This document shows, piece by piece, positions 9,952 to 19,500 of a stretch of 64,000 bases of DNA. The notes beneath the pieces are model-generated. The model saw only the letters and a list, made by a program, of their open reading frames with translations, was not told where the DNA came from and searched no databases. The stretch is from Pseudomonas pergaminensis (GTDB lineage Bacteria > Pseudomonadota > Gammaproteobacteria > Pseudomonadales > Pseudomonadaceae). The stretch lies in NCBI RefSeq assembly GCF_024112395.2, contig NZ_CP078013.2:4402001-4466000 (forward strand), in the 5' to 3' direction. Position 1 is the first letter of the stretch, and every line of letters starts with the position of its first letter. The translations under genes were made by a program, and so were the position numbers.

Positions 9952-11607
9952 ATGACTCGATTAAAACCGCTGCCGGTCTTACTGCTGGCCTTTGTCGCGT
10001 TCTACCTGCTGCCCCTGGGCCTGCACGGCCTGTGGATACCCGACGAGACCCGCTACGCGCAGATCAGCCAGGAAATGCTCCAGAGCGGCAACTGGATCGC
10101 GCCGCACTTCATGGGGATCCGCTATTTTGAAAAGCCTGCCGGCGGCTACTGGTTGATCGCCCTCGGCCAGGCGGTGTTTGGCCAGAACCTGTTCGGTGTA
10201 CGCATCGCCTCGGCGCTGACCACCGGCCTGAGCGTGCTGCTCGCCTACCTGATCGCCCGTCGCCTGTGGAATGACCCGCGCAAAAGCTTCGCCTGCGCCC
10301 TGCTCTACCTGAGCTTCGGCCTGGTGGCTGGCCAAGCTGGCTATTCCAACCTGGACCCGCTTTTCACCCTATGGGTCAACCTGAGCCTGGTGGCCCTGTG
10401 GTTTGCCCTCGACAGCACCACCCAACGCGGCCGCTTGTGGGCCTGGGCCGTGGTGGGGTTGGCCTGTGCGTTGGGTTTCTTGACCAAGGGTTTCCTGGCC
10501 TGGGTGCTGCCGGTGCTGATTGCCCTGCCCTACATGCTCTGGCAACGCCGCCTGGGCGAACTGCTGCGCTACGGCCCGTTGGCGATACTGGTAGCGGTTT
10601 TGGTGTGCCTGCCGTGGGCACTGGCGATCCACCTCCAAGAACCAGACTTCTGGCGCTTCTTTTTCTGGAATGAACACATTCGCCGCTTCAGCGCCGACAA
10701 CGCGCAACATGTGCGGCCGTGGTGGTTCTTCCTGCCAATCATTGCTGTGTCATGCCTGCCCTGGGCAGGGCTGTTGCCCAGCACCCTACGCACAACCTGG
10801 CAGCAAAAGCGCCAGCCGGCCATCGCCTTCCTGGCCCTGTGGCTGCTGCTGCCGCTGGGCTTCTTCAGCCTGAGCAACGGCAAGTTGCCGACCTACATCA
10901 TGCCGTGCCTGCTGCCCCTCGCGCTATTGATGGGGCACACCCTGACGGACCTGATCAACCGGCACAAAGCCCGCACGATCTGCCTCAATGGCCTGCTCAA
11001 CTTCGTGATCGGCATGGCCGCCATGATCGGCCTGATCTACCTGCAAATCGCCCGGCCGTTGTACAGCAACAGCCACGCCGAGATGTTCAGCCTGTCCCTG
11101 GCCTTTATCGTGTTGCTGGTGTGGATCCTCGCCAACCTGCTGCAAGCGTTCCGGCCGTTGACGCTGTGGGCCATGCCCGCCCTGGGCATCGGCCTGCTGG
11201 TGATATTGCTGCCGGCGAGCATGCCCGCCTGGATCGCGGACAACGAAATGCCCGACCAGTTTGTGCTCGAACACTTGGAAGAACTGCAGCAGACTCAAGC
11301 GCTGCTGAGCAATGAATTGGAGAGTGCCAGCGCCCTGGCCTGGCGCCTGAATCGCCCGGACGTGGCGCTGTATGACACCGAGGGCGAGCTGCGCTATGGC
11401 TTGCAATACGCGGGTTCGGCACATCGCAAAGTGGAATTGGAAGCGGTCCAGGCCTGGCTCAAGGCCGCCCGCCAGCGTGGCTCGGTGGGCGTGCTGATGC
11501 GGGTCAACAGCACCAGTGAAATGCGCGAGGCGGGGCAATTGCCGCCCGGCGGCAAACGTTATTACAAGGGTTATCTCGAACTGATCATCTACCCGAGCCT
11601 GCCCTGA
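9952..11607 (+). CDS. arnT: ArnT-like undecaprenyl-phosphate-sugar:lipid A transferase (GT83/GT39-type)
   Basis: 551 residues with about a dozen hydrophobic helices. The first periplasmic loop has the conserved acidic site ([16 protein letters not shown], residues 28-43) and EKPAGGYWL. The C-terminal soluble part has [15 protein letters not shown]. In Proteobacteria ArnT moves 4-amino-4-deoxy-L-arabinose from a lipid carrier to lipid A, lowering the negative charge and giving polymyxin resistance. The other arn genes are not in the window, so the sugar donor could differ. The stop TGA overlaps the next ATG (TGATG), so the following transferase gene is translationally coupled. Start ATG 9952 opens with [13 protein letters not shown]. 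Confidence 0.8.
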
Positions 11608-13127
11608 TGACGACGTTGTGGAAGAGCGAACGCGGCGCCCTGCTGCTATTGCTGGGCGTCACCGCGCTGCTGCTGCTCACCGGCCTCGGCGCACGCGACC
11701 TGTGGGGCCCGGAGACCCGCTGGGCGAACATCGCCTTGCAGATGCTGCAGAGCGGAAATTACTTCGACCCCTACCTCAAGGGCGCGCCCTATTACGACAA
11801 GCCCCTGCCTTCCTATTGGCTGATCACCGCCACGGCCCACCTGATGGGTGGCCTCGGGCCGTGGTCACTGCGCTTGCCCTCGGTGATCGGCGCCTGGCTG
11901 AGCGTGTGGCTGGTCTACCTGCTCGGTGAGCAACTGATGCGCAAAGGCACCGGGCTGATCGCCGGCTGGATGCTCGCCACCACCTTCTACTTTCTGTTCT
12001 GGGCGCGGGTGGCCACGGCGGATGTGCTGACGGTGTGTGGCGTGCTGGCCGCGGTCTGGTGGTACTGGCGTGGACCAAAGGACACCCGGCTGGGTCGCTA
12101 TACCTTGTTTTTCCTGTTGCTCGCCGTGAACTCGCTGTTCAAGGGCTTGATCGGCTTTGTGCTGCCAGGCCTGGTCCTGCTGCCGCACCTGCTCGGCGAG
12201 CAGCGCTACAAGCAGCATCTCAACCTGCGCCTGGTGCTCGCCCTGCTGATCGCCGCCGCGGTGTATGCCGTGCCGTTCGTGCTGTCGCATGTCTACGGTG
12301 CGCCGACCTAGGGGCAAAGCGGCCTGGCCCTGGTATTCCGCGAAAACGTGGTGCGATTCTTCGACCACTTCGACCACATGGGGCCGATCCACACCTACCT
12401 GATCTACCTGCCCGCCTACACCCTGCCGTGGCTGCCGTGCTGGCTGCTCGGCCTGCGGCTGGCGCTGCGGCACTGGCGCCAGGCCCCGCCCAACGTGCGA
12501 TGGCTGGTGTGGGGCCTGGGCCTGTTGTTTATGTTCTTCACCGCCAGTGGCAGCCGGCGCAGCTACTACGTGTTGCCACTGGTGCCCTTCGCCCAGTTGC
12601 TCGGCGCCTGGTGGCTCAGCGAACGCCTGCAAGCCAGGCCCGCCAGCCGCCCGCGCTGGTACAAAGGGTTCGCCTGCGCCGCGGTGTTGATGCTGCTGGT
12701 CATTGGCGTGGCCTATCCATGGAGCTACGGCAATGGCGGCGTCACCCGCCTGGCCGAGGATGTGCGTACCGAAGCGGTCAAAAGCGCGCCTTGGGATGAG
12801 TGGCAAATGGTGCTGGTGGAAGTGGACAACAAGGTGCCGATGTACCTGCAAAACAGTGGCAAGCCTTTCTACTACGTGGCCGAGACCCAGGACTTCCCGC
12901 GCCAGGGCGACAGCGCGGCGTTCATGGCCTGGCTGCAGAAAACCAGCGTCAAGGCCTTCGACCCGCAGCGCACGATCATCGTCGCGCAGTATTCCAAGGA
13001 TGATCCGACGCCGTTGGCGTACCTGGGCGCGGATCACCAGGTCATCACCACCCAGCCGGACAATGGCGAGCGTTTGTTTCAAAAACGGCAGGACGGCAAC
13101 GTGGCGTTCGTTCCCTTGCCTGAATAG
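11607..13127 (+). pseudogene. Second ArnT-like glycosyltransferase gene broken by an in-frame TAG
   Basis: One reading frame runs from ATG 11607 to TAA 13127 with a single internal stop, TAG at 12309-12311 (codon 235). Before it lie ArnT-like features (DLWGPETRWANIALQ, YYDKPLPSYWL, membrane helices). After it the same frame continues with family-like sequence (FFDHFDHMGPIHTYL, SGSRRSYYVLPLVPFAQLLG and a soluble C-terminal domain). TGG (Trp) or CAG (Gln) to TAG is a one-base change; the context CCGACCTAGGGGCAA fits ...PTWGQ. There are no other lesions, so the change is recent, a sequencing error, or suppressed. Without readthrough, a 234-residue membrane fragment would be made. Confidence 0.8.
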
Positions 13128-13135
13128 AAGCGGTC

Positions 13136-13849
13136 TTATCCTTTTGGCAGGCTGGCGGCATGGATAAATGCCTCATCCAGGCTTTGGGCGTCGTAGGCGC
13201 CCATGAAGCCTTGCGCATCAGTGAAACGGTTGAATCGCCTTTGGCTCAGCATGTAAAAGTCATCGCAATGCGCGACGATTTCATCGACGTTGTGTGATGA
13301 AACCAACACCGCGACACCCTCTGCCGCCGCCCCCTCCAGACAACGCCAGATGTGATAACGAAACTCTGGATCCACACCCGCCGTGGGTTCATCCAGTATC
13401 ACCAGGTCCGCGTTGGCGCAGAGCAGGGACAACGTAAAAAACCAACGCTTTTCCCCATAGCTGCAGAGTGCGGATTTTTTGTTCCAGATCTCGCAGTAAC
13501 GCTCTGCGATGCCGGGGCTCCATTTTTCGATTTTGTCGAGTGCATGTTGTTGGGTGACCCTGGTGTCGGAGCAAAACAGCATGGTCATTTTGAAGATGTC
13601 GAACATGCGAAATACAGGGGGTGTGCTGATGATCTGTGACAGGTACAGCAGCTTGGAAAAGGCGCTGTTTATTTCACCACCCTCTCTTTTCTTCAGGCCG
13701 CACAGCACATCAAAAAAGGTGGTTTTGCCGGAGCCGTTTGGGCCAAGAAGGCCTGATATGGAGCCGGCGGTGACTGTCAGAGAAGCCTTATGAAACACGA
13801 TATGAGTTCCATATCTGACGTCAAGAGAGTCTACGAGAAGCCTTGCCAT
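13136..13849 (-). CDS. mcbF: ABC transporter ATPase, McbF-like (microcin export/immunity)
   Basis: 237 residues. Walker A GLLGPNGSGKTT, Walker B DLVILDEPTAGVDPEF and the H-loop SSHNVDEI are clear. The signature is unusual, SYGEKRWFFTLSLL instead of LSGGQ-type. Length and order match McbF of the microcin B17 operon, where McbE/McbF pump the microcin out and protect the producer. The start is ATG 13849, overlapping the stop of the permease frame (TGATG). The gene is intact and has lower GC and rarer codons than its neighbours, a sign of transfer. If the permease is dead, this ATPase has lost its partner. The McbF name rests mostly on context. Confidence 0.6.
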   Translation of the reverse strand: MARLLVDSLDVRYGTHIVFHKASLTVTAGSISGLLGPNGSGKTTFFDVLCGLKKREGGEINSAFSKLLYLSQIISTPPVFRMFDIFKMTMLFCSDTRVTQQHALDKIEKWSPGIAERYCEIWNKKSALCSYGEKRWFFTLSLLCANADLVILDEPTAGVDPEFRYHIWRCLEGAAAEGVAVLVSSHNVDEIVAHCDDFYMLSQRRFNRFTDAQGFMGAYDAQSLDEAFIHAASLPKG

Positions 13850-14595
13850 CAATAACGACTCCAAACAGGATTAATTAATAAATAACGACACATCACTAAA
13901 AACAAAAACACAAGCGAAATGGCAACAACCCAGAAAACCAAACCGCATTCAACCACACCGTCCAACATAATCTTATTCGCCCACCACATCGGGTTAAAAA
14001 AACCGACAATAGCTAAGGCGGGACTGACTGGCCCCCTACTGATGATCTCGAGAGCCAACATCGTAAGGGACAAAATTGAAAAGAAGGTGTTCGTATTTTG
14101 AAAGCCTAATGGGACAAGCGTCAGCAACAGCGCGGGTATAGAAAAAAGAAGAAAGCAAACATAAAATCGCCCTACGATCACAAGATACTCCGCGACATCA
14201 AACTCCCCTGAAAAAATTCGAGTGAGTATATAAAATACGGAGCAATACAATATTGAAACAACTGAATATGCATAAAACTGCCCAATCAAAAAAACAACCA
14301 TCGTACGTTTCGTGTAAACAAAATACCGAAGAAAACCACTTTCCCTTCGACCAACTATGTAAAAGGCAAACCCGAACAGTGCAACATTTGAGGAAACAAA
14401 GGCGTAAAACCATGAAGTCTTCGAAAGGTAATCCACGGCCTCACTACTCAATGGCGCACGCGCGTAGGTAAGCAAATAATAGGTAACCACTGGAGATACC
14501 ACTGTCCAAAATAATGCAACAGGTTCTCTGAGTTGTTATTTTATAAATAGCGCCGCTAGCAAAGCCGGCCTTGACACGAAATAAAAACCCATCAT
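13849..14595 (-). pseudogene. mcbE: ABC-2-type permease, McbE-like, with an in-frame TAA at codon 20
   Basis: The true start appears to be ATG 14595, behind a good ribosome site (GAGGTGA). It reads MMGFYFVSRPALLAALFIK, then TAA (14538-14536), then QLREPVALFWTVVSPVV and on to the end in the same frame. The typical ABC-2 motif LREPxALFWT right after the stop shows that the upstream part belongs to the gene. CAA or CAG to TAA is a simple change. The rest (about 228 residues, six hydrophobic helices) is undamaged. Calling the gene from the later GTG 14502 would hide the lesion. It overlaps the ATPase start by one base. GC is low compared with the window. Confidence 0.72.
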
Positions 14596-14600
14596 TCACC

Positions 14601-14768
14601 TCACGGAAACGGGACCATAACTTCTAGCCTAGAGCTTTCAACCGGGTACAGTGCGCCACCGCTCGGGTATCCCCTTTTGCAAGAGTCCAGATTCCTTGAT
14701 AGTAATGAGCGCATCAATTTCTCTACATCTGAAAACTCTAAGGAGAAAGGTGAGAAATGCTCAAGATC
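14601..14768 (-). pseudogene. mcbC: Remnant of a McbC/SagB-like dehydrogenase joined to a YcaO-like C-terminus
   Basis: Read from 14768 down to the stop at 14603, one frame gives about 55 residues containing RGYPSGGALYPVE. This is the flavin-binding hallmark of SagB/McbC-type azoline dehydrogenases and nitroreductases (R-x-YPSGGALYP). A few residues later it ends in EVMVPFP and a stop, like the proline-rich C-terminus of YcaO cyclodehydratases (McbD). The stop lies 5 bases before the permease ATG, where the end of mcbD would be expected. The simplest reading is two internal deletions that fused mcbC and mcbD fragments. It is below the usual ORF length cut-offs and has no start of its own. Confidence 0.6.
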
Positions 14769-15003
14769 TCAGGGGAATTGCTCTTTCTAAAAATGCAAAA
14801 GCATCATTATGATTTAATCCGTTTTCCGCCAACACCTCATCCAGCTCGACTTTCTTCATCAGCTTCGACAGTTTTAGTTGCCGAAGGGCTCTTATCAACG
14901 ACTGTGAATGAATTTTCGAAACCCCGACGTCGGAAATTAAAAGACTCTCCGCCTCAAAGTTCAGGATTTCATAGTTAGGCATGGTTATATTCATTAGCCT
15001 CAT
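14761..15003 (-). pseudogene. mcbB: N-terminal fragment of a McbB-like protein
   Basis: 80 residues (MRLMNITMPNYEILNFEAES..., then ISDVGVSKIHSQSLIRALRQL and VELDEVLAENGLNHNDAFAFLE), ending abruptly at a stop inside what would be a ~300-residue protein. From memory, McbB of microcin B17 opens with the same pattern: a short beta region, an 'SDV/SSVDI' turn and a helical leader-binding-like segment. The next frame carries McbC-like sequence directly behind it, so the 3' part of mcbB is deleted. The match is a recollection of the family pattern, not an alignment. Confidence 0.45.
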
Positions 15004-16008
15004 GCGCGCATTAAATTAGGTTGCTCACCGTCAAGCAACAACACCAAATCTAGTCCAGCAGGAGAATATCGCAACAACAATAAAATCTTCATACAGGAAA
15101 TATAACTATCAACTTTAGGAAAGTTCACTCACACAATTCAGAAGATCAACAATTGCCAAAAACGTCAAAGCTATCACCCATCACACTTCAAAAAATCAAA
15201 CCCTGTGAATTTAATAACTTACAAATTATCGAACTAATAGAATCAACTAATACCCACGCAGGTGTCTTTTGCAAAACAGAACTTAGCCCTACAGACGCGA
15301 ACAAAAAAAAAAAAAACGACAAACGGCACTGGTTAGTTCTTAATGTTTGTCGTCCGCGCTACGCTAATACCGGCGTCGCTCACCCGTGTAATGACTACAT
15401 CACCGAGGATGTGTGTACAGAGACGGCCAAACTCGCGTAGTGCTTTCAGCACACCCGCAGGTGGTGTGTATGGTGCAGAGTACCTCCTTGAGTTTTTCTG
15501 CCTCGCGAATGAATGCGATGTGCCCTTGGGGCTCTTCGCAGTGGGCATCGCTCGCTGCGCCATACGCCCGCAATCAAGTATCCGGATTGATCCGGCTTTT
15601 GCGCTGCGCACTCGCCAAGTTCCGGCTGTTGAGGTCGCTGTTCCGTCTGCCCGTGTACAGGACGATGGCGCGGTTGGTCACCCGTTGCAGGTCGGACAAG
15701 CGCTGAGAAATGCAAAGGATGACTATGCAGCGGGCGTGTTGGCAGTGTGTTTGGTGAGCGTATAGGTAGCCTTGGACTGCGTGGCGCGAGCGGCAATAGC
15801 CCGAAAACGAGTCGAACAAACAGTCATGCGCCGCAGGGAAGAACAATCGTCTTAATCACCTGCAAGATAGTTGGGCTCATCAAAACCAACAGCTCCATAT
15901 AACCCAAACACATGGATACTTGTTTTTTATACCTGTCAACATTCACAGTTTACACACGTCTGAAACTTGAAATAATTGGAGCACACCCACCCAAAGGAAG
16001 CGCTCATC
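15004..16008. other. About 1 kb with no convincing gene, AT-rich then GC-rich
   Basis: 15004-15350 is AT-rich, as expected upstream of a transferred operon; I looked for a Gly/Ser/Cys-rich McbA-like precursor and found none. 15330-15850 has higher GC and short overlapping ORFs on both strands, none with a ribosome site and family-like sequence. A minus-strand reading is interrupted by a TGA at 15574-15576 and continues as EEPQGHIAFIREAEKLKE, so a decayed gene is possible. Confidence 0.4.
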
Positions 16009-16497
16009 ATGTCTCAGGCACACTTGAACGACCTCATTCATCACAACGAGCCCGGCAACAGCAAAGCAACGGGTACATTCACCGTAAGTCTGGATGGTGC
16101 TCCATTCCCACTGCCACCAGAAAAACGCTTGGATTTCGAGAAACATCTCGGCGACGAGCTTTTCGAAACCAGATGGATTGGCAGGAGAGTAGGTGAGCAG
16201 CCTGACGCCAACTATCAAGCCGTTGTATTGGCCATTTCAGATTCGGTCCCCGATGGCACTCATCAAGTTACATACTTTGGAGACGTAACGGTGACTTACG
16301 CTCTTGTTAAAAACGGTCTCATCGTCAGTTATTATGCAAGGGAAGGAGAACTCACCCTCACCTCTGATCGCACATCTGGGCAGGAGCATATTTATGGCAC
16401 TTTCACCAATTGCCGAATGGTTCAGGATGGGGCGCCGCAAAATGAGTTCCGGATGTCGGGCACTTATGACCTGAAGGATGTTCACATCATCCCTTGA
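16009..16497 (+). CDS. Conserved hypothetical beta-rich protein
   Basis: 162 residues. ATG 16009 has a ribosome site (AAAGGAAG) 9 bases upstream; an earlier TTG at 15976 has none. No signal peptide or membrane helix. The sequence alternates short strands (GTFTVSLDG, YQAVVLAIS, VTYFGDVTVTYALV, GELTLTSD, HIYGTFTNC, RMSGTYDL), which suggests a small beta-sandwich or lipocalin-like barrel. I do not recognise the family. It stands alone and converges on the NRPS gene, with a shared terminator between them. Confidence 0.65.
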   Translation: MSQAHLNDLIHHNEPGNSKATGTFTVSLDGAPFPLPPEKRLDFEKHLGDELFETRWIGRRVGEQPDANYQAVVLAISDSVPDGTHQVTYFGDVTVTYALVKNGLIVSYYAREGELTLTSDRTSGQEHIYGTFTNCRMVQDGAPQNEFRMSGTYDLKDVHIIP

Positions 16498-16530
16498 AAA
16501 AAGGGGGGCGGTGCCAATTGCAGCCGCCCC
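16497..16530. terminator. Bidirectional terminator between hypothetical gene and NRPS gene
   Basis: GGGGCGG (16505-16511) pairs with CCGCCCC (16524-16530), extended by GC/GC inside. The A-run at 16497-16502 gives a T-run after the hairpin on the minus strand, so it mainly ends the NRPS transcript. Confidence 0.75.
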
Positions 16531-16537
16531 TCTCACT

Positions 16538-19500
16538 TCAAATCCGCCGCCGCCGCCCCAACTGCGGAATAGCCGCCTGAGGCACCTCCACCCGCTGCAC
16601 CTGCGTCAACACACACCCAGCCAGTTGCGCCACCGTCGGATGACTGAACAACGCCCGCGCATCCACCTCCACCCCCGCCTTGCGCATCCGCGCCACCAGG
16701 TTCACCGCCAACAACGAATGCCCCCCCAGCTCAAAGAAATGATCGTGTCGCCCCACCCGCTCCAACTTCAGCACCTCAGCCCAGATCCCGGCCATCAAGC
16801 TCTCCACGGCTCCGACCGGCGCGGCATAGGCTCGGCTCACCACCGCCCCCAACCCCGGCTCCGGCAAGGCCTTGCGGTCGAGTTTGCCCGCTGGGTTGAG
16901 CGGTAATTCGTCGAGTTGCACAAACGCCGCCGGCACCATGTATTCCGGCAATTGCTCCAGCACATGGGCGCGCAACGCATCCGGGCTCGGCGCCTCGGCA
17001 CGCGCGGTGAAGTACGCCACCAGGCGTTCATCGCGAATCAACACCGCCACTTCACGCAACGCCGGATGCATCAGCAGCCTTGACTCGATCTCCCCCAGTT
17101 CCAGGCGCACACCGCGCAGTTTGACCTGGAAGTCGTTACGCCCGAGGAACTCCAGATTGCCGTCAGGCAGGTAACGCACCAGGTCGCCAGTGCGATACAG
17201 GCGATCTCCGGCCACGAACGGGCTGTCGATAAAACGCTCGGCGGTCATCTGCTGCAGCCCCAGGTAACCCCGCGCCACGCCGACCCCACCGATGTGCAAC
17301 TGACCGCTCACGCCCATCGGCACCGGCGCATCCTGTTCATCCAACACATACAAGCGCGTGTTGTTGATCGCCCGGCCAATCGGCAATTGCAGGGCCGGCA
17401 CCGGCGCGCCAGGCTCCAGGGTCCAGGCGCTGCTGTCCACCGTGGCTTCGGTGGGGCCATAGACATTATGCAAGCGCACCTTGGGCAAGCGCGCTTGCAC
17501 GCCACGGGCCAGGGCTTCGGTGAGTTCGCCGCCGCCACACAACACATCGGTGAGGCTGGTGCACAGCGCCGACGCCTCCAGCTCAAGGAATTGCTGCAAC
17601 ATCGCCGGCACAAACTTGATCACCGTGATCTGCTGCTCGCGAATCACCTGCGCCAGGTAGGCAGGCTCGCGATGACCATCGGGCCGCGCCAGGACCAAGC
17701 GCATGCCATGGGTGAGCGGCCAGAACAGCTCCCACACCGACCCATCGAAGCTGAACGGCGCCCGCTGCAACAGCGCGCCGCCTTCGGCATTGGGGCAAAG
17801 CCGGGAACCCCAGTGCATCAGGTTGCCGAGCCCGCGATGCTCGATCATCACGCCTTTGGGCGTACCGGTGGAGCCCGAGGTGTACATAACGTAGGCCAGG
17901 TTGGCGACGCTCAAACCGGGCACAAGCGGGTTGCCGCTGGGTGCCTGGCTCCAGGCGCAGTGGTCGAAGTCGATCACCGGGATCGACACCTCACCCGGCA
18001 CGTCGCGGGTGGCGGCGTGCACCAGCAACGCGACCGGTTGGCTGTCCTGAAGCATGTAGGCCAGGCGCTCGCGCGGGTAGCCAGGGTCGAGCGGCACATA
18101 GGCGCCGCCCGCCTTGAGGATGGCCAGCAGGCCCACCACCAGGTCCAGCCCGCGTTCGACGCACAGCGCGACGCGGGTGTCCGGTTGCACACCGCGTTCA
18201 CGCAGGTGGAAGGCCAGTTGGTTGGCGCGTTCGTTGAGTTCGCGGTAAGTCAGTTGCCGCTCGCCGGCCTGCACGGCCACGGCATGCGGGATTTGCCGCG
18301 CGTGGGCTTCGAACAACGCCTGCACGGTGAGGTGCTCGGGGTAGTCCGTGGCCGTGGCGTTATAGTCCACCAGCAGGGTGTTCAGTTCGCTGGCGGGCAG
18401 TACCTGCACGTCACGCAAGGGGCTTTGCGGCCTGTGTTCCAGCGCGTCCGCCAAGTTCACCAACGCGGTTTCGAGGTAGTCCAGCAGACGCTCGGCGCCG
18501 ACCTGGCGCGGGGCCTTGGCCTTGAGGCGAAAACCGCTGGCGATGTCGTCCACGGTCAGCATCAGCGGGTAGCTGAGGATGTCTTCGCTGCTGAGCAAGG
18601 CAATGCCCGGTACCAGGGTCAGGTCGCGCTCGGCGTCGGTGTGCCGGTAGTTGAGCAGGCTGTTGAACAAAGGCGACGCGCTGCTGCAGCGTTGGGCCAG
18701 CGCAAGGGAAGCTTGTTCATGGGCGAGCAAGGCGCTGAGCCGGGTGTGGGTGTCAACGAGCGCATCGGCCACCGTTCGCCCCGCCAGCCGCACCCGCAGC
18801 GGCAGGGTGTTGATGAACATGCCCAAGGCCCGGTCGGCGCCCTCGCCCGCTTGCAAACGGCCGAGCAGCACGGTGCCGAACACCACATCATCGCGCCCCG
18901 CGACACGGCCAAGCACATGGGCCCAGGCCAGGTGGAACAGGCTGGCGGCGCTCACGCCGGCCCCACGAGCCTGCGCACGCAGACGCTGGTTGAGGCTGTC
19001 GCTCAATACACGTTCGGCTTCGTCGGTGTGGGCGCGATCCGCCTGGCGCTCCTGCAGGCCGAACGCCAGGGTCGGCTCATCCACATCCCCCAACTGCTCA
19101 CGGAAAAACGCCTCATGCCCGGCCTGTCGCGCTGGCGAACGGGCTTGCACCACCACATTGCGATACGGCACCGGCGCAGGCAGTTGCGCCTGTTGGCCGA
19201 GCAGGTGGGCGCGGATTTCCTGCATCAGGATCGTGGTCGACGTGGCGTCGTTGACCAAGTGATGAAAGCGCAACCGGGCGACCCAGCGCGGGTGTGAAGG
19301 CTCTTCGGCATAGTCCAGGGCCATCAGCGGCGCCCGGCGCAAATCCAGCGGCGCAGGGCCTTCGCGCAGCGGTTCGACGCGCAACGGCGCCTGGCGCCAC
19401 ACCACCTGCATCGGTTGCTCCAAGCCCTCCCACACCAGGCTGGTGCGCAGGATGTCGTGGCGATCGATCACCTGTTGCAGGGCCTGGGCAAACGCGTCCA

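Follow-up and report, generated by a model that had tools for sequence, protein, structure and literature searches.

What does a lone, intact ATPase gene of the ABC type represent when it lies beside an interrupted permease gene and a row of short coding fragments, and why has this part of the locus been kept? The question is raised by a stretch of 64,000 nucleotides, here called the window, from the chromosome of Pseudomonas pergaminensis (6.6 Mb, a single contig, 100% completeness; genome G000 in the numbering used below). The features of the locus, in window coordinates, are as follows.

13136..13864, minus strand: mcbF, encoding the ATP-binding component of the microcin B immunity/export pump; uninterrupted 242-aa ORF
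13849..14592, minus strand: mcbE, for the putative membrane component of the same pump; interrupted in frame by a TAA at 14536-14538
~14601..14636, minus strand: mcbD remnant directly upstream of mcbE; last codons VMVPFP-stop, from frame reading and nucleotide alignment to the mcbD end of genome G121
14637..14762, minus strand: mcbC remnant; residues 88-129, containing RGYPSGGALYPVE
14764..14994, minus strand: mcbB remnant (ORF 14761-15003); residues 1-77
14995..15016, no strand: deletion junction, the place of mcbA and adjoining upstream bases in relatives; 298 bases of G121 absent
15017..15340, no strand: retained sequence upstream of the lost mcbA; 75% identity to the G121 sequence that precedes mcbA

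Every piece that the first-pass annotation had named (an McbB-like N-terminus, a fragment with a hallmark of azoline dehydrogenases, a YcaO-like PFP terminus, a permease with one stop and an intact ATPase) was recovered. The mcbF product matches ABC_tran (PF00005, 9.1e-15) and shares 94% identity with its counterpart in the intact G121 operon. The mcbE sequence aligns with the intact McbE of that operon at 84% identity over residues 1-247 with one stop, downstream of which an open frame (13849-14502) is left; in 54 of the 55 other genomes with mcbE, the mcbE match is stop-free. McbE matches no Pfam or NCBIfam family, and its assignment as the membrane subunit, a role that we in part presume, is by homology to annotated mcbE. 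The mcbC remnant is 81% identical to residues 88-129 of a sister McbC (E 8.7e-18) and matches the solved McbC (6gos) weakly (E 0.0021). The mcbB remnant is 79% identical to the sister McbB (E 5e-34) and matches the McbB family of NCBIfam, TIGR04424, with an E-value of 6.4e-13 and 49 bits, under the family cut-off of 65; searched alone against solved structures (PDB), it gave no McbB match. Both the order and the lengths had been read as those of mcbB-C-D-E-F. The order holds, but the lengths do not: 77 of 285 residues survive in McbB, 42 of 268 in McbC, and about 11 of 397 in McbD.

The region is AT-rich, as had been noted, with GC contents of 0.51, 0.43 and 0.48 in the kilobases from 13001 to 16000, against 0.63-0.65 in 10001-13000 and 0.58-0.68 in 16001-19000. 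The operon promoter may lie within 15017..15340. This upstream DNA is not specially conserved, since it is part of a stretch that is 93% identical in genome G017, and is 75-78% identical to G121 and G321. Two neighbouring sequences are recorded here in their own right. A glycosyltransferase gene at 11607-13127 (plus strand), PMT-like by the Pfam match of its neighbour, contains a single in-frame TAG (12309-12311) that divides it; among the loci of 12 relatives, seven matched this gene, none of them with a stop, and five had no match. The DNA at 15600-15765 looks like decayed coding sequence and, judged by eye, like the end of a sugar-ABC ATPase gene; it is 75-83% identical to five relatives and 93% identical to G017.

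The 1868-base DNA of the locus was searched against 298 genomes of the genus (E <= 0.001), of which 91 matched, mostly weakly. The matches in G121 and G017 (88 and 87%) belong to intact mcbA-B-C-D-E-F operons at this site, with glycosyltransferase genes on one side and a large NRPS gene on the other (NRPS by sequence reading). Thus the comparison with sister strains that the first-pass annotation had recommended yielded both an intact cluster and an McbA precursor gene; the precursor consists of a leader and a GGCGGSGGCGGGGGC core. McbB, McbC and McbD of G121 match the solved chains of the microcin B17 synthetase (6gos) with E-values of 4e-11, 2.5e-39 and 1.9e-56, respectively, and in profile searches its McbB matches TIGR04424 (7.1e-74) and its McbD matches YcaO (4.9e-16). 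When compared with G121, the window shows three deletions: one of 298 bases that takes in mcbA, one of 890 bases that begins in mcbB and reaches into mcbC, and one of 1564 bases that begins in mcbC and extends to the mcbD end. They amount to about 2.75 kb, besides the mcbE stop; their sizes are taken from BLAST alignment ends and are uncertain by a few bases. No long repeats were visible by eye at the deletion breakpoints.

What is left in the window is therefore a remnant of an mcbA-B-C-D-E-F operon of the microcin B type, located on the chromosome. The window has no McbA precursor, a loss that the first-pass annotation had not mentioned, and no complete McbB, McbC or McbD, its McbE is interrupted, and its pieces are colinear with an intact sister operon that occupies the same site and is itself of the microcin B17 kind. 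This colinearity with G121 and G017 rules out chance similarity of the fragments, and it strongly supports the decayed microcin-B17-like operon that had been proposed from the window alone. Because the operon occupies one shared site in several relatives, the loss of its genes is local. A plasmid origin of the region was rejected, as its DNA had no match in the plasmid collection; McbE relatives occur there in 136 records, all at less than 60% identity. A second mcb set in G000 was likewise rejected: there is a single YcaO match, in a 739-aa frame at 3.61 Mb, one mcbE only, and no complete operon. Glycine-rich matches to mcbA in G000, G057, G067, G136, G286, G301, G320 and G391 were judged to be of low complexity and were not counted; the one in G000, the sole mcbA match near the window site, has 43% identity and lies about 2.1 kb from mcbE.

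For the census across the genus, 398 genomes, one per species, were searched with a 14-row alignment of mcbE (E <= 1e-10) and a 6-row alignment of mcbD (E <= 1e-6). The former was found in 56 genomes and the latter in 28, all of them among the 56, so that a match to mcbD without mcbE occurred in 0 of 28 cases. The 56 loci were annotated by tblastn against a reference set from G121 and named loci. In 25 of them B, C and D are matched; G091 has D, no B and the tail of C only; and the remaining 30, here called orphans, have mcbEF without usable BCD (D remnants in G139 and G382 were scored as lost). Among the 26 genomes with synthesis genes, five have one such gene broken or missing (G021, G037, G052, G303 and G091), and the mcbE and mcbF matches are stop-free in all 26, the mcbE match of G244 being without its N-terminus. 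Among the orphans, mcbE is uninterrupted in 28 of 30 (exceptions G000 and G218) and mcbF is of full length in 29 of 30 (exception G242). Both genes are intact, without usable BCD, in 27 of the 30 loci; the window genome lies outside the 27.

A second collection, of 62 named loci (61 from Pseudomonas, one from Litchfieldella), which overlaps the 398-genome set, contains 34 loci with at least two of B, C and D, and 28 orphans; L057, L085 and L101 end near a contig end upstream. In this set, P. jessenii DSM 17150 (L063, L092) combines in one strain a complete mcb cluster with a second, separate locus that has mcbEF only; this lone pair perhaps protects against another variant of microcin B.

Signs of erosion in place were sought at both ends of the lost region. 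In 11 of the 30 orphans, the window included, the terminal codons of McbD (PFP-stop, or PFS in G321) stand 14-65 bases upstream of mcbE. Codons of the same PFP type form the end of mcbD in 25 of the 26 loci with synthesis genes, and in a control this scar was found in 1 of 3054 windows of the same loci. DNA of the upstream flank is common to the orphan and a complete cluster in 23 of the 30 orphans (82 bases only in G139). Scar or common flank is present in 26 orphans, and neither is present in four (G224, G307, G344 and G394). In G321, G231, G274 and G276 the deletion starts in mcbA or close to it and stops shortly before mcbE. The mcbE and mcbF closest to those of the window are in G321, whose mcbE is intact; its deletion keeps mcbA sequence and removes B-D, and so differs from that of the window.

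On a tree built with a careful method from the McbE plus McbF proteins (56 rows; G344, G023 and G007 have long branches and are of unsure placement), the orphan label requires 20 changes, 15 of them forced by well-supported branches; this parsimony count includes changes in either direction, and it could be too high if whole clusters have been transferred. Orphan labels are no more clustered than shuffled ones (20 changes against a shuffled mean of 18.9). One-sided erosion has thus occurred repeatedly in the genus: the toxin-making genes go and mcbEF stays, and the window is one case.

The selection on the remaining genes bears on why they stay. The tip branch of an orphan also spans the period that preceded the loss, unless two genomes share a deletion, and there is one clear pair of this type, G208 and G320, which have one common orphan layout (4263 continuous bases, 95.5% identity), so that their divergence postdates the loss. 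In this pair omega is 0.28 for mcbE and 0.17 for mcbF, with neutrality rejected (p 1.4e-5 and 4.6e-4); both genes have been under purifying selection after the loss. In a codon model of a 16-genome clade, omega of mcbE is 0.095 on complete and inner branches, 0.125 on orphan branches, and 0.37 on the G000 branch. Orphan and complete branches do not differ significantly for mcbE (2dlnL 2.97, p about 0.085), and the corresponding omegas of mcbF are about equal, at 0.097 (complete) and 0.099 (orphan); the first mcbF model ended at the iteration limit. A separate mcbE rate for the G000 branch improves the fit (2dlnL 5.95, p about 0.015), and fixing omega at 1 on that branch fits worse than leaving it free (2dlnL 4.97, p about 0.026), the pattern that a recently broken gene would show. 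Between G000 and G321, mcbE has 31 changes besides the stop, mcbF has 3, too few for an omega test, and the flank differs by about 8%. The low divergence of mcbF might reflect recombination over this gene.

The stages that follow can be seen at the same site. A glycosyltransferase beside mcbF served as the site marker (E <= 1e-40) and was found in 107 of 398 genomes. Sites without mcbE were kept at an identity of at least 78%; G205, a contig-end piece, and matches below 78% were omitted. In this way 31 of 42 genomes at the site have no mcbE (in two of the 31, G048 and G095, the site is shortened by a contig end), and the remaining 11 are eight orphans and three complete clusters. G119 (L189, about 808-904) retains a C-terminal remnant of mcbF only, seen in both protein and DNA, and the other 30 of the 31 sites have no counted mcb trace. 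Matches to mcbF at eight other sites were short, of 28-48% identity and most likely to other ABC ATPases, and were not counted. Complete, orphan and mcbE-less states are mixed on the glycosyltransferase tree. The site thus has the full series from complete to empty, where empty sites are counted whether or not an operon ever stood there, and since mcbE is missing at 31 of 42 sites, the pump is not always kept.

These data can be read together as an mcb operon eroded in a manner repeated in the genus, with toxin synthesis lost first and the pump kept as resistance; we assign this reading a probability of about 0.8. The order of loss alone might, in principle, give the same picture. Synthesis must be lost before immunity, as the reverse is lethal, and loci with mcbEF only would then be a passing state of neutral decay without benefit. 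The census agrees with this to the extent that no mcbD match occurs without mcbE; indeed, since mcbD without mcbE would be suicidal, the missing mcbD-alone state is by itself no proof of a benefit of mcbEF alone. Later stages of decay also exist, namely mcbE broken in G000 and G218, the mcbF tail in G119, and the many sites without mcbE. Neutral decay is, however, difficult to reconcile with 27 of 30 orphans in which both genes are intact, with the constraint measured after the loss in G208 and G320, and with an mcbF omega that is about equal in orphan and complete lineages, and we regard it as unlikely.

A new substrate or a general export role, rather than microcin B, might also keep the orphan pump. 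ABC exporters can change substrate, and four orphan loci have neither scar nor common flank. Orphan and complete pumps are nevertheless mixed across one tree with no separate orphan clade, and their rates are similar in the 16-genome clade, so that we consider this explanation improbable.

For the window itself, kept resistance is doubtful. The stop removes or truncates McbE, and because a pump without whole McbE should not work, protection has probably been lost in G000. The first-pass annotation had suggested that the surviving pump genes might have been kept for immunity; this would fit the pattern in the genus, but it is doubtful in the very genome for which it was proposed, where mcbE has an early nonsense codon and relaxed constraint. 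Translation could restart at the GTG at 14502 and give McbE minus its first 30 residues; a frame of 217 aa is left open after the stop, and omega on the G000 branch is still below 1. The part that would be lost, however, has residues invariant in 42 McbE proteins (e.g., E23, P24 and W29), constraint on this branch is relaxed (0.37 against 0.095-0.125), and mcbF, whose start overlaps the 3' end of mcbE, may need mcbE to be translated; a working pump in G000 is therefore rather less probable still. Errors of sequencing or assembly as the source of the stop or the deletions find a hint in the second nearby gene with one stop (12309-12311) but are hardly credible, given a complete single-contig genome, three large deletions that are impossible as base-call errors, a different deletion in G321, the nearest genome by mcbEF, and the further changes that separate G000 from G321 in mcbE (31) and mcbF (3).

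Returning to the eroded operon with a kept pump, the course of events, with the proposed role of the pump, is as follows. In the window lineage, three deletions took away mcbA, the greater part of mcbB and almost the whole of mcbD, and mcbC lost both its ends; mcbE has a stop, and mcbF is intact. Elsewhere in the genus, lineages that lost the toxin-making genes kept mcbEF, and the kept pump would export microcin B entering from neighbouring producers and so give resistance to non-producers. In E. coli, the available text of PMC10912980 describes McbEF as exporting microcin B17 and, together with McbG, giving immunity. Resistance in Pseudomonas would do without a gyrase protector of the McbG type: none of the 26 genomes with synthesis genes has a pentapeptide-repeat match on the mcbE contig at 50 kb or less from that gene, and the PF00805 matches in 24 of these genomes are more than 50 kb away or on other contigs (some mcb contigs are short). 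G000 has PF00805 matches at 2.31 and 5.62 Mb, and mcb at 4.42 Mb. One of its pentapeptide-repeat proteins, of 215 aa, was rejected as McbG; it has a secreted-like start (by eye) and adjoins a PQQ-dehydrogenase-like gene. The second such frame is of 128 aa. G000 also has three matches to the SbmA/BacA family, so that a route of peptide entry may exist; these could be relatives with other roles. In the window genome, protection would now be in the course of being lost.

A broader claim, for which we consider the odds slightly better than even, is that mcbEF forms a resistance module in its own right, at which Pseudomonas lineages have arrived repeatedly by deleting the adjoining toxin genes, with at least about 15 changes from producer to resistant non-producer. 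Lone mcbEF would then mark lineages that still meet microcin B in nature, and the window would be the next stage, in which exposure has presumably ended and the pump is breaking. The loci range from the complete operon through a pump alone and a broken pump to a last trace and an empty site, and they offer natural replicates of how bacteria leave toxin production while protected, as expected from models with producers, resistant strains and sensitive strains. Automatic gene calling would probably report a lone ABC transporter and no more, so that such resistance pumps are easily missed; if the claim is true, microcin B resistance in these species is predictable from mcbEF.

Among known systems, the operon is most directly compared with mcbABCDEFG of E. 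coli pMccB17, with which it shares the gene order A-B-C-D-E-F and whose solved McbBCD chains are matched by the sister B, C and D. It differs in that it is chromosomal here, with no mcbG found near the operon, and in that the window has only mcbF intact. Microcin-B17-like clusters of the P. fluorescens group (PMC8719888, PMC3390384, as far as their excerpts go) are of the same kind as the sister operons, and the excerpt of PMC8719888 lists the same six genes and no McbG homologue in its strains; those sources describe clusters that are present, whereas eroded clusters and lone mcbEF pairs are described here. Two microcin-B17-resistant E. coli strains with an orphan mcbG and an mcbF orthologue, described in the accessible part of PMC10926693, likewise have immunity genes without synthesis genes, associated with resistance. 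There, however, transposase sequence flanks the genes, gene transfer is the interpretation and mcbG is present, whereas here erosion in place leaves mcbE and mcbF.

Immunity genes without working toxin genes are thus of an already known kind. Klebicin B is a protein bacteriocin with a one-gene immunity protein and differs from mcb in not being a modified peptide with an ABC pump. At its locus, too, the toxin gene is lost and the immunity gene is kept: according to the text available from PMC10269471, the immunity gene kbi is complete in 17 of 17 strains and the toxin gene is disrupted in 14. Lone mcbEF or mcb loss in Pseudomonas was not found among the matches listed in a literature search that covered few subscription papers. 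Set beside these systems, the Pseudomonas case is unusually well replicated.
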